The notes under the pieces: generated by a model | Databases searched by the model: none | What the model saw: the letters and a program-made list of their open reading frames with translations, nothing else | What the model was told of the DNA's origin: nothing | NCBI RefSeq assembly: GCF_004348265.1 | Contig: NZ_SMNT01000002.1 | Coordinates: 62,001 to 126,000 of the forward strand | Direction: 5' to 3' | DNA length: 64,000 bases | Origin: Methylobacterium segetis | Lineage (GTDB): Bacteria > Pseudomonadota > Alphaproteobacteria > Rhizobiales > Beijerinckiaceae | Shown: positions 40,746-61,027 of the stretch, piece by piece | Layout of the letters: each line of letters begins with the position of its first letter | How positions within the stretch are numbered: the stretch's first letter is position 1 | Position numbers and translations under genes: made by a program

Positions 40746-41453
40746 TCAGCGCCGGGTGTTCACGGCATTCTGCCCGAACATCACGTCCTTGGCCTCGGGG
40801 CTCATCGGCTGGCCATGGTTTGGGTTGACCTCGGACGCACGCGCATACGCCGCCTTCGTCGCCGGGCGCTCGCCGATCGCCGTGAACCAACGCTTGAGAT
40901 GCGGGTGCTCGTCGAGATCCTGGCCCTGTTTCTCCCAAGGGACGATCCACGGATAGGCCGCCATGTCGGCGATCGAATAATCCGGGCCGGCGACGAAGGT
41001 CCGGTCGGCGAGGCGGCGATCGAGAACGCCGTAGAGGCGGTTCGTCTCGTTGACGTAGCGATCGATGGCGTAGGGCACCTTCTCGGGCGCATATTGCGAG
41101 AAATGGTGATTCTGGCCGAGCATCGGGCCGAGCCCTCCCATCTGCCAGAACAGCCATTGGAGGACCTCCACCCGGCCGCGCAGATCCTGGGGCAGGAAGC
41201 GGCCCGTCTTCTCGGCGAGGTAGAGCAGGATCGCCCCCGACTCGAAGATCGAGACGGGATCGCCGCCGCCCGCCGGCTCGTGATCGACGATCGCGGGCAT
41301 CCGGTTGTTGGGGGCGATCTTGAGGAAGTCCGGCTTGAACTGGTCTCCCTTGCCGATGTTCACCGGATGAATCCTGTAGGGCAGGGCGGTCTCCTCCAGG
41401 AAGAGCGTCACCTTGTGGCCGTTCGGGGTCGGCCAGTAGTAGAGGTCGATCAT
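40746..41453 (-). CDS. Glutathione S-transferase (YfcG/YghU-like)
   Basis: The 235-residue protein has an N-terminal thioredoxin-fold domain (LYYWPTPNGHKVTLFLEE, a Thr/Asn rather than Ser/Cys at the active position; NNRMPAIVDHE; FESGAILLYLAEKTG, the Glu-Ser pair binding glutathione) and an alpha domain with PEKVPYAIDRYVNETNRLYGVLDRRL. This pattern matches nu-class GSTs (YfcG/YghU), which act as disulfide-bond reductases. The gene runs alone and ends in a rho-independent terminator. Confidence 0.9.
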   Translation of the reverse strand: MIDLYYWPTPNGHKVTLFLEETALPYRIHPVNIGKGDQFKPDFLKIAPNNRMPAIVDHEPAGGGDPVSIFESGAILLYLAEKTGRFLPQDLRGRVEVLQWLFWQMGGLGPMLGQNHHFSQYAPEKVPYAIDRYVNETNRLYGVLDRRLADRTFVAGPDYSIADMAAYPWIVPWEKQGQDLDEHPHLKRWFTAIGERPATKAAYARASEVNPNHGQPMSPEAKDVMFGQNAVNTRR

Positions 41454-41604
41454 CGGGTCTCCGGGACTCGTGCCATGTCGCTCGTCGCGCCCTCGCGGCG
41501 CAGGTGGGACGCATCCGTACGGAGGTCAAGCGCGGCGCGGCCGGCCCTTTGCGGCCGAACGGACGCGTGCGAGCGTCGGTCGCCGTCCGCGTCGGGGGCC
41601 TGCC

Positions 41605-42552
41605 ATGTCATCATCGGAGATCGACAGCGTCCGCGCCCTGCTCGCCTCGCGCCCGCGGCCGACCGGTCTGGCGGAGCGGCGGGAGCGGCTCGACTGGATC
41701 GGCAGCCTCTCGACGCTTCCGCCGGATGTGAGGATCGAGCCCTCCGAACCCGGCGGCGTCCCGGCCGAATGGTCCGCGACACCCTCCGCCGACGGGAGCC
41801 GCGTGCTCCTGTTCCTGCACGGAGGCGGGTACGTTTCGGGATCGCTCGCGAGCCACAGGGTCATGGTCGCGATGGCCGGGCGCGAGGCCGGATGCCGGAC
41901 GCTCGCCCTATCCTACCGCCTCGCGCCCGAGCATCCGTTCCCCGCAGCCCTCGACGATGCCCTGGCAGCCTACCGCTTCCTGCTGACCTCCGGCATCGCA
42001 CCCGAGCGGATCTGCCTCGGCGGCGAGAGTGCCGGGGGTGGGCTCGCGCTCGCGACGTTGGTCAGCCTGCGCGAGGCGGGCGATCCGCTGCCCGCCTGCC
42101 TGTGGTGCGCCTCGCCCTGGGTCGATCTCGAGATGACGGGCGCCAGCATCGAGACGAAGGACGCCGTCGATCCGATCATCAATCGGGCCTATCTCGGCGA
42201 ACTCGCGGCCGCCTACCTCGACGGGTCGGATCCGCGCGGTCCGCTCGTCTCCCCACTGCAGGCCGATCTGACAGGGCTTCCGCCGACGCTGATCCAGGTC
42301 GGCTCGGCCGAAACACTCCTCGACGACGCCGTGCGGCTGGCGGGCAAACTCGCCGCGGCAGACGTTCCGGTGACGCTCGCCGTCTGGCCTCACATGATCC
42401 ACGCATGGCATCTGTTCCATCAACGGCTGACCGAGGGAGCCCAATCGCTTGCCCAGGTCGGCCGCTTCGTCCGCGAACACACGGGCAGCGACGTGAACGC
42501 GACTTGCCGGCCCGCCGGCTTGTCCCTAGAAACCTCCCATGTCGGGGTGTAG
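41605..42552 (+). CDS. Alpha/beta hydrolase, HSL-like esterase family
   Basis: The 315-residue protein has the HSL oxyanion motif LFLHGGGYVSGS, the nucleophile elbow GGESAGG, an acid residue in the DDAV region and catalytic His in HMIHAWHLF. These are the alpha/beta-hydrolase fold 3 (hormone-sensitive lipase-like, family IV) features of short-chain esterases. The start is ATG 41605. The stop codon TAG (42550-42552) lies inside tRNA-Pro(TGG), so the last ten bases of the reading frame are tRNA sequence (bases 1-10). Confidence 0.88.
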   Translation: MSSSEIDSVRALLASRPRPTGLAERRERLDWIGSLSTLPPDVRIEPSEPGGVPAEWSATPSADGSRVLLFLHGGGYVSGSLASHRVMVAMAGREAGCRTLALSYRLAPEHPFPAALDDALAAYRFLLTSGIAPERICLGGESAGGGLALATLVSLREAGDPLPACLWCASPWVDLEMTGASIETKDAVDPIINRAYLGELAAAYLDGSDPRGPLVSPLQADLTGLPPTLIQVGSAETLLDDAVRLAGKLAAADVPVTLAVWPHMIHAWHLFHQRLTEGAQSLAQVGRFVREHTGSDVNATCRPAGLSLETSHVGV

Positions 42553-42619
42553 CGCAGTCTGGTAGCGCACCTGGTTTGGGACCAGGGGGTCGTAGGTTCG
42601 AATCCTATCGCCCCGACCA
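42543..42619 (+). tRNA. tRNA-Pro (anticodon TGG), CCA encoded
   Basis: Cloverleaf: acceptor CGGGGTG / CGCCCCG (one G.T), anticodon stem CCTGG / CCAGG with loop TTTGGGA (anticodon TGG), T arm GTAGG TTCGAAT CCTAT, discriminator A, CCA. Its 5' end overlaps the 3' end of the hydrolase gene by ten bases. A complex I-related gene starts 25 bases later. Confidence 0.95.
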
Positions 42620-42644
42620 TCACCTTCGGAGACCGTCAGGACCC

Positions 42645-42956
42645 ATGTCGAGCGCCCGCATCTTCCAGCCCTCGAAGGATGCCTCGCAGTCGGGCCTCGC
42701 CCGGACCAAGACCTGGCTCCTCGAATTCGACCAGACCAGCCCGCGCGAGACCGACCCGCTCATGGGTTGGACCGGCTCGTCCGACATGCTGCAGCAGGTC
42801 AAGCTGGAATTCGACACCCAGGAAGAGGCCGTCGCCTACGCCAAGCGCGCCGGCATCGCCTACCGGGTCGAGGAGCCGCACAGGCCGGTCATGCGCAAGG
42901 GCCTGTCCTATTCGGACAATTTCAAGTTCAACCGGACCGCGCCCTGGACGCACTGA
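42645..42956 (+). CDS. NDUFS4-like ETC complex I subunit
   Basis: The 103-residue protein belongs to the ETC_C1_NDUFS4 family: ARIFQPSKDASQSGLARTKTWLLEFD, the PLMGWTGSSDMLQQVKLEFDTQEEA core and KGLSYSDNFKFNRTAPWTH. In mitochondria and alphaproteobacteria it is the supernumerary 18-kDa subunit of NADH:ubiquinone oxidoreductase, at the N/Q module boundary. It is encoded away from the nuo operon, as usual. Confidence 0.92.
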   Translation: MSSARIFQPSKDASQSGLARTKTWLLEFDQTSPRETDPLMGWTGSSDMLQQVKLEFDTQEEAVAYAKRAGIAYRVEEPHRPVMRKGLSYSDNFKFNRTAPWTH

Positions 42957-42963
42957 AGGGGCC

Positions 42964-43425
42964 TCATTCCGGCCTCCGGTCGCGCCGGACCGCGTAGGGC
43001 GGCGTCTCGTCTGTCGGCCGGATCTGTTCGAGCCGCATGGGTTGCTCGGAGAGCAGCCGGCACAATTCGGCGTAGAGGCCGGCCGTCTGCAAGCCGTAGG
43101 TGTCGGCCTCCTCTGCCGTGTAGGCGAAATAGCCTTCCCGAATGCCGGACAGGCGCATCGCGGCGTGGCACATCGGGCAGGGCTGGCCACTGGCGTAGAC
43201 GATGCAGCCGGCGAGGTCCCGGCTGCCGAGGCGGCGACTGGCCTCCCGCAGCCCGACCATCTCCGCATGATCGGTCGGGTCGTTGGTCCGATGCACCGTA
43301 TTCACCGAGCGGGCGAGCACCGTCCCATCCCGCACGATCACGGCTCCGTAGGGTGAGCCGCCTTCTTCCGCATTGCTGCGGGCGAGGGCGACGGCGTCGC
43401 GGATATGGGTCTCGTGGTCGCTCAT
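42964..43425 (-). CDS. Nucleoside/guanine deaminase family protein
   Basis: The 153-residue zinc enzyme of the cytidine deaminase superfamily has the HAE motif in DPTDHAEMVGLR (zinc His and catalytic Glu) and PCPMC (two zinc Cys). It resembles guanine deaminase/TadA-like branches (GSPYGAVIVRDG, TVHRTNDPTDHAEM). The substrate cannot be fixed. GAAGGATCCCGG before ATG 43425 is a good ribosome site. It is convergent with the NDUFS4 gene at eight bases. Confidence 0.85.
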   Translation of the reverse strand: MSDHETHIRDAVALARSNAEEGGSPYGAVIVRDGTVLARSVNTVHRTNDPTDHAEMVGLREASRRLGSRDLAGCIVYASGQPCPMCHAAMRLSGIREGYFAYTAEEADTYGLQTAGLYAELCRLLSEQPMRLEQIRPTDETPPYAVRRDRRPE

Positions 43426-60234: not shown

Positions 60235-60386
60235 CCCCGGGCGACGCTACATGGGGTGGGCGGGGCTGCAGGGTTCGTCAGGAGAACTTTTCCCCGGGGC
60301 CTTATCGACTCCCTCGGGAGCTGTCCCTGGCCTCGTCCCTGGACTTGGCCAACACGGCGCCCACCTACGCTGTAGGTTTCCCGGGA
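60235..60386 (+). ncRNA. ssrS: 6S RNA (SsrS)
   Basis: It sits between zapA and fthC, the standard 6S locus. The ends pair: CCCGGG (60236-60241) with CCCGGG (60380-60385), CTACA (60247-60251) with TGTAG (60371-60375) and GGTGGGC (60255-60261) with GCCCACC (60359-60365). The result is a long rod with an internal region around 60270-60350, about 150 nucleotides. 6S RNA binds the housekeeping RNA polymerase holoenzyme and mimics an open promoter. The exact ends are by eye. A reading frame of the downstream gene remains open through it by chance. Confidence 0.82.
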
Positions 60387-60406
60387 TCGACACTCCAACG
60401 GCTCAC

Positions 60407-61027
60407 GTGGCTCCGCACTCGACCTCTCCCATCTCCGCCCTCAAGGCCGACCTCCGCCGCGAGGCGCTCGCCCGGCGCGACGCCCTCGACCCCGACCTGC
60501 GCCGCGAGGGCTCGCTGCGGATCGCCGAGGCCGTCCTCGACGTGCCGGGGCTCGCCGAGGCGCCGATCGTCGGCGCCTTCTGGCCGATCCGGAGCGAGGT
60601 CGATCCGCGCCCGATCATCGAACGCCTCTTCGCCCGCGGCCAGCGCGTGGCGCTGCCGAAGGTCACGCCGGAGGGCCTCGTCTTCCGCGAGTGGAAGGCC
60701 GGCGAGGCGCTGGTGCGGGGCGGCTTCGGCCTGAGCGAGCCGCGCGACGAGCTGCCCCCCCTCGATCCGACCGCCCTGATCGTGCCGCTCGCCGCCTTCG
60801 ACCGGCGCGGCCAGCGCATCGGCTACGGCCGGGGCTATTTCGACCACGCCATCTCCCGCCTCGGCGCGAACGGCCCGGTCCTCACGATCGGCATCGCCTT
60901 CTCCGTGCAGGAGATCGAGGAGGTGCCCGCCGAACCGCACGACCGGCCCCTCGACCACCTGATGACCGAGGCCGGTCCCGTCTCCCTCGTCAAGACAGCG
61001 ACCGATGCGCCTGCTCTTCCTCGGTGA
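60407..61027 (+). CDS. fthC: 5-formyltetrahydrofolate cyclo-ligase
   Basis: The 206-residue enzyme converts 5-formyl-THF to methenyl-THF with ATP, relevant to C1 metabolism. The motifs are LKADLRREALARRDAL (start), the substrate segment GFGLSEPRDE and the C-terminal RIGYGRGYFDHAI (ATP/Mg binding). The start is GTG 60407, just after 6S RNA; the frame extends into the RNA without family sequence. It overlaps the next gene by 23 bases. Confidence 0.93.
   Translation: MAPHSTSPISALKADLRREALARRDALDPDLRREGSLRIAEAVLDVPGLAEAPIVGAFWPIRSEVDPRPIIERLFARGQRVALPKVTPEGLVFREWKAGEALVRGGFGLSEPRDELPPLDPTALIVPLAAFDRRGQRIGYGRGYFDHAISRLGANGPVLTIGIAFSVQEIEEVPAEPHDRPLDHLMTEAGPVSLVKTATDAPALPR

Follow-up and report, generated by a model that had tools for sequence, protein, structure and literature searches.

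The stop codon of an esterase gene lies within a proline tRNA gene in Methylobacterium segetis

The window analysed here is a stretch of 64,000 nucleotides from Methylobacterium segetis (RefSeq assembly GCF_004348265.1, contig NZ_SMNT01000002.1, positions 62,001 to 126,000 of the forward strand), and coordinates are those of the window unless another genome is named. An esterase gene, a gene for tRNA-Pro(UGG) and a gene for a complex I subunit follow one another on its forward strand, the first two of which share ten bases, and the features of this region are as follows:

41605..42552, + strand, esterase (alpha/beta hydrolase of the hormone-sensitive-lipase type with a GESAG motif), 315 codons and the stop TAG
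42494..42496, + strand, out-of-frame TGA, probable remnant of the ancestral stop, to be compared with the TGA of genome G019
42496..42549, + strand, last 18 esterase codons, residues 298-315, NATCRPAGLSLETSHVGV, the DNA of which aligns with the G019 spacer
42503..42532, + strand, probable tRNA promoter CTTGCCG-N17-TAGAAA, a motif conserved before tRNA-Pro in the genus
42504-42509 and 42527-42532, + strand, parts of this promoter, TTGCCG and TAGAAA, with a 17-nt spacer between them
42543..42552, + strand, esterase/tRNA-Pro overlap of ten bases, the TAG being tRNA bases 8-10
42543..42619, + strand, tRNA-Pro(UGG) with encoded CCA (ARAGORN, Rfam)
42645..42956, + strand, NDUS4-type complex I subunit, 103 aa, 25 nt after tRNA-Pro

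The esterase is a real gene, as its product has an Abhydrolase_3 domain (PF07859, E 3.9e-55, with 187.3 bits where the cut-off is 25), matches solved esterase structures (3.5e-90, EstD11 and Est8 being the best relatives) and has orthologs in the genus, 12 of 24 further genomes of which give matches that span most of the protein at 64-82% identity; in G011 the gene is present in pieces. The best PDB matches stop at esterase residue 292-295. The GESAG motif itself is found in the protein, the score for the NCBIfam GESAG_HSLs subfamily (295.6 bits) being under the curated cut-off of 430. The start was taken as the ATG at 41605, which matches the start of the G019 ortholog, the ORF list beginning at an upstream GTG. 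The neighbour upstream, a glutathione S-transferase-like gene on the - strand, is divergent and the esterase is therefore probably transcribed alone.

The overlap is real as sequence. ARAGORN places tRNA-Pro(TGG) at 42543-42619 on the + strand and the Rfam tRNA model covers 42543-42616 with 67.8 bits. The final esterase codons read CAT GTC GGG GTG TAG, the first base of the tRNA (42543) being the third base of GTC and the TAG at 42550-42552 being bases 8-10 (U8-A9-G10) of the tRNA, so that a tRNA gene contains the stop of a protein gene on its own strand. A sequence-only reading of this DNA had put the stop at these bases and the last coding bases in the 5' strand of the tRNA, and ARAGORN, the ORF list and the positions of the codons relative to the tRNA all agree with it; its claim that the tRNA supplies the C-terminal residues is likewise correct for one base of V313 and all of G314 and V315, plus the stop. 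Between 42478 and 42640 the stop at 42550 is the only one in the esterase frame. Judged from the 5' end of the tRNA, RNase P would be expected to cut between 42542 and 42543, within codon 313.

Whether such an overlap persists in relatives or reflects a recent loss of the original stop had been posed as the question for comparison. A query of 361 bases, running from the end of the esterase through the tRNA, was searched in 111 genomes of the genus, own included, and among the matches listed only the own genome and G019 cover it whole. When the esterase was compared by tblastn with up to 1.5 kb of DNA preceding tRNA-Pro, in 57 regions from 48 genomes (45 from the genus), it directly adjoined tRNA-Pro in 2 of the 45 genus genomes, again the own genome and G019; the other 66 of the 111 were judged solely by their best match to the 361-base query, and a diverged adjacent copy could be missed in these as that search alone covered them. 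Of the two adjacent pairs that of G019 stops earlier, so the overlap is found in the own genome only and no recurrence across species was seen, in 45 genus genomes by tblastn and in the rest by the 361-base query. In G022 the esterase lies ~0.8 kb from tRNA-Pro with a HigB-like gene (PF05015, 1.6e-15) in between, and in G006 it lies ~1.4 kb from the tRNA with an MFS transporter gene (PF07690, 1.8e-45) in between. The HigB-like gene of G022, at about 1500-1781 of locus L201, is of the toxin-antitoxin type.

The G019 ortholog, a protein 82% identical, has the same gene order and stops at a TGA 58 nt before the tRNA. Translation to the stop was carried out for 15 loci, namely the own gene, 12 genus orthologs, Kaistia defluvii (L121) and Methylobacterium sp. 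Leaf123 (L122), the partial L014 and L015, the weaker L016-L030 and 78 of 80 named loci being left untranslated. All 12 genus orthologs are shorter than the own 315 residues, at 294-306 residues counted from the start of the match (query residue 1-4), that of Kaistia defluvii has 294 residues and that of Leaf123 (70%) is interrupted after 260. When aligned with the proteins of G019, G022 and G006, which end at residues 296-299, the own protein continues alone; indeed residues 298-315 have no counterpart in the relatives compared, such a tail being present in none of the 12 genus orthologs. The C-terminus of this esterase varies anyway, since the L007 and L008 orthologs (306 residues) carry a tail of about ten residues past the others that is of different sequence.

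The DNA of the tail has in common with the G019 spacer the elements CGACTTGCCGG-nn-CGCCGGC-nn-GTCCCTAGAAACC. In a MAFFT alignment the own sequence has gaps of 13 and 1 nt against that spacer, net 14 nt fewer, a placement that is not unique and to which there are possible alternatives. With this net difference and with the TGA at 42494 out of frame, the esterase frame runs through what was spacer to the TAG. The GC content by codon position of the last 20 codons (0.65, 0.55, 0.80) is near that of the body (0.73, 0.55, 0.84) and therefore composition does not flag the tail as non-coding; the tail is nevertheless probably translated spacer without function. An earlier in-frame stop is thus found in relatives, in G019 and in 12 of 12 orthologs, and the added tail corresponds to former spacer, as seen from one relative (G019). 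The comparison suggests that the original stop was lost recently, a direction of change that rests on the one comparison and the shorter orthologs because G019 is the only genome to share the adjacency.

The promoter-like motif before tRNA-Pro falls entirely within the esterase ORF tail, with 10 nt between it and the tRNA. The pattern CTTG[AC]-N-TA, which was fixed after the upstream alignment had been viewed, occurs before tRNA-Pro in 41 of 47 distinct sequences (in 50 dinucleotide shuffles the mean was 0.52 and the maximum 3), these 47, which are related to one another, being 44 of the genus and 3 of other families. It also occurs within 100 nt of 13 of the 42 own tRNAs (shuffles, mean 0.46 and at most 2), and is absent from 6 of the 47 upstream sequences and from 29 of the 42 own tRNAs. 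The DNA further upstream differs among relatives and the motif itself recurs. A generic sigma-70 scan of 41500-43100 did not report a tRNA promoter. It is probable that tRNA-Pro has its own promoter inside the ORF tail, from which, by the usual promoter spacing, transcription would start near 42539-42541 and give a leader of 2-4 nt, and for this reason tRNA-Pro need not depend on read-through from the esterase. The scan of 41500-43100 found no terminator between esterase and tRNA. A 5-bp hairpin at 42506-42519, the stem of which recurs in G019, overlaps the -35 region, has no T run after it and is not claimed as a terminator, and 42500-42660 folds no better than shuffled sequences do (z -0.04).

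In 24 of 25 genomes of the genus, counting the own one, a DNA match extends across both tRNA-Pro and the NDUS4 gene downstream of it. In other families a tRNA matching tRNA-Pro lies at most about 250 nt upstream of NDUS4 on the same strand in 11 of 16 genomes, as judged from coordinates and irrespective of anticodon. Transcription of NDUS4 may begin at the tRNA promoter, 3' processing of the tRNA then producing the 5' end of the NDUS4 mRNA. In G019 (C1:808530-808837, in L204) NDUS4 matches in two overlapping pieces, as if frameshifted or mis-sequenced. On the + strand of the window an ORF of 713 codons, 40815-42956, reaches across the tRNA in a different frame to join NDUS4, its stretch GVAQSGSAPGLGPGGRRFESYRPDH being translated tRNA; translated tRNAs are a frequent source of spurious annotated proteins. 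Elsewhere in the window 6S RNA (RF00013, 77.4 bits) lies at 60260-60417.

How readily a frame will end in a tRNA by chance can be gauged from the rest of the genome, in which Rfam finds 43 tRNAs and ARAGORN, run on the surrounding DNA, 42 distinct ones. TAG stands at bases 8-10 in 27 of these 42, and a stop is present in all three forward frames in 6 of them, in two frames in 25, in one in 10 and in none in 1. Across relatives bases 8-10 of this tRNA-Pro are TAG in 35 of 47 and TGG in 12 of 47. As TAG at these bases is common, an ORF that loses its stop would have about one chance in three of being captured there, given an A at base 9. Eleven ORFs of at least 100 codons stop inside a tRNA in this GC-rich genome and the esterase is the only one of them with a Pfam match (the other ten have none), hence it is not unusual here for an ORF to end in a tRNA, but it is for a supported gene.

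None of the other ten was taken as a second overlap on this evidence, codon-position GC in all frames having covered seven of them and Pfam only the remaining L064, L069 and L089. By codon-position GC a different frame or strand looks more like coding sequence at L062, L207, L088, L086 and L076, L206 has a rival frame and L063 gives an unclear picture. The frames of L062 and L207 have matches in relatives, many broken by stops; that of L207 matches G006 over 443 residues (61%) without a stop, and is read as probably the shadow of a conserved gene given its codon-position GC and the broken matches elsewhere. The L063 frame (L218, G000:C253), of 781 codons, ends at bases 8-10 of tRNA-Thr(CGU), and a 502-residue part of it matches 12 other genomes, all from the genus, out of 20 in which it was sought. 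Long frames at the same place end before the tRNA in L219, L220 and L221, a 212-codon frame in G022 (L223, C154) also ends at bases 8-10, and in G019 (L222) no frame does so; neither the 781-codon frame nor that of L223 has a Pfam family, and these frames may represent a real gene or a shadow. For tRNA-Pro itself, 14 of 47 upstream sequences, own included, have a frame of at least 60 codons that stops in the tRNA, at base 8 (7) or base 21 (7). No Pfam family was found in the 13 such frames of relatives, so that no other gene ending in tRNA-Pro is supported there, a gene of no known family being possible.

It seems likely to us that the overlap is a recent, lineage-specific loss of a stop, with the tRNA made from its own promoter, a tail without function and a nonstop outcome on read-through. 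Two other explanations have to be weighed against this. An error of sequencing or assembly, in which a small indel near 42490-42496 shifts the frame and the real stop is at or near the TGA at 42494, would account for that out-of-frame TGA sitting about where G019 stops; this is one draft genome, in 256 contigs, and a change of frame at the old stop would on its own suffice and be indistinguishable from a base-call error. However, base-call errors are not usually as long as the net difference of 14 nt from G019, and the remaining spacer aligns well with that of G019. The earlier stop that the sequence-only reading had named as the sign of an artefact does exist in relatives and may mark one, though we regard an error as unlikely.

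A functional coupling, whereby the mRNA normally reads through, the esterase and tRNA-Pro are alternative products and maturation of the tRNA turns the esterase off, would be in keeping with an only in-frame stop that lies 3' of the RNase P site, with the lack of a terminator-like site in the scanned region and with the presence of tmRNA in the genome. No connection of this esterase with proline tRNA is known to us, the overlap is absent from G019 and from all 12 translated genus orthologs, and tRNA-Pro has its own conserved promoter-like motif, all of which count against coupling and make it, in our opinion, improbable, even with the same model published for selB-selC in Alphaproteobacteria (PMC8124441).

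Under stop loss, the most likely course is a recent and near-neutral change, in which a small deletion or frameshift beside the esterase stop would have removed the in-frame stop in this lineage, the frame would then have continued across the short spacer in which the tRNA-Pro promoter lies, for some 18 codons, and the TAG formed by U8-A9-G10 of the tRNA would have halted it. Transcription of the tRNA would most likely start from its own promoter and give it a leader just a few nucleotides long. A molecule that reads through could either be translated as far as the TAG or give a mature tRNA, not both, as RNase P would remove the only in-frame stop and leave a nonstop mRNA, a substrate for tmRNA, of which the genome has a full-length match (308.6 bits) and a second, partial match (101.2 bits). 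An esterase transcript that ends before the tRNA, or is cut at 42542/42543, would likewise keep no in-frame stop and need ribosome rescue, and full-length untagged esterase would require a transcript with the first ten tRNA bases uncut. The cut had thus been placed correctly in the sequence-only reading, its "must be cut" applying to read-through transcripts alone, whilst the consequence drawn from it differs from the loss of the stop expected here; the suggested link between stability of the mRNA 3' end and tRNA processing is a hypothesis weakened by the probable promoter of the tRNA. It is doubtful that matters go further, with each read-through transcript giving either untagged esterase or mature tRNA, RNase P making the esterase a standing tmRNA substrate and bases 8-10 of tRNAs serving as a general catch for lost stops.

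The closest known parallel is selB-selC, in which tRNA-Sec is nested in or overlaps selB, cases with the stop inside the tRNA included, and for which RNase processing has been proposed to yield a nonstop mRNA (Mukai 2021, PMC8124441). These overlaps are known in Alpha- and Gammaproteobacteria, and in Dyella/Luteibacter the selB stop is inside the tRNA at residues 46-48 and close strains stop before the tRNA (PMC8124441). The esterase case is alike in that a bacterial protein gene and a tRNA on the same strand share bases and a relative stops before the tRNA, and unlike in that the selB-selC overlap, as described there, recurs in many species and joins genes with cooperating products (PMC8124441), whereas that of the esterase is found in one genome, is ten bases long, has partners without known common function and has a tRNA promoter-like motif inside the ORF. 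Unidirectional overlaps have been modelled as loss of the stop of the upstream gene and its extension to the next stop (Fonseca et al. 2013, PMC3887535), and the esterase fits this in losing its stop and extending into the downstream gene until the next one; the model is of two protein-coding genes, whilst here the downstream gene is a tRNA and U8-A9-G10 gives the stop. In human mitochondria, where tRNA punctuation applies and tRNA processing leaves nonstop mRNAs (Ng et al. 2022, PMC9674279), a tRNA likewise borders the coding sequence and processing of its 5' end sets the 3' end of the mRNA, but there polyadenylation completes many of the stops (PMC9674279); a cut esterase end, ...CAU GU, with A's added would read GUA AAA and have no stop. 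A literature search, mostly short of full text, found no report of this esterase/tRNA-Pro overlap, which is of an already described kind, seen in one genome so far, and probably arose by accident.

What the locus offers is a small and readable example of how a protein gene comes to overlap a tRNA, with a promoter caught inside the frame, the nearest comparable relative being without the overlap and the own genome having it. Wherever base 9 of a tRNA is A, bases 8-10 can provide a TAG ready-made, as they do in 27 of the 42 of this genome. The finding would mainly be a caution for annotation, the last 18 residues being probably translated spacer, unless the nonstop outcome is true, in which case the locus would let competition between the ribosome and RNase P be tested in a natural setting.
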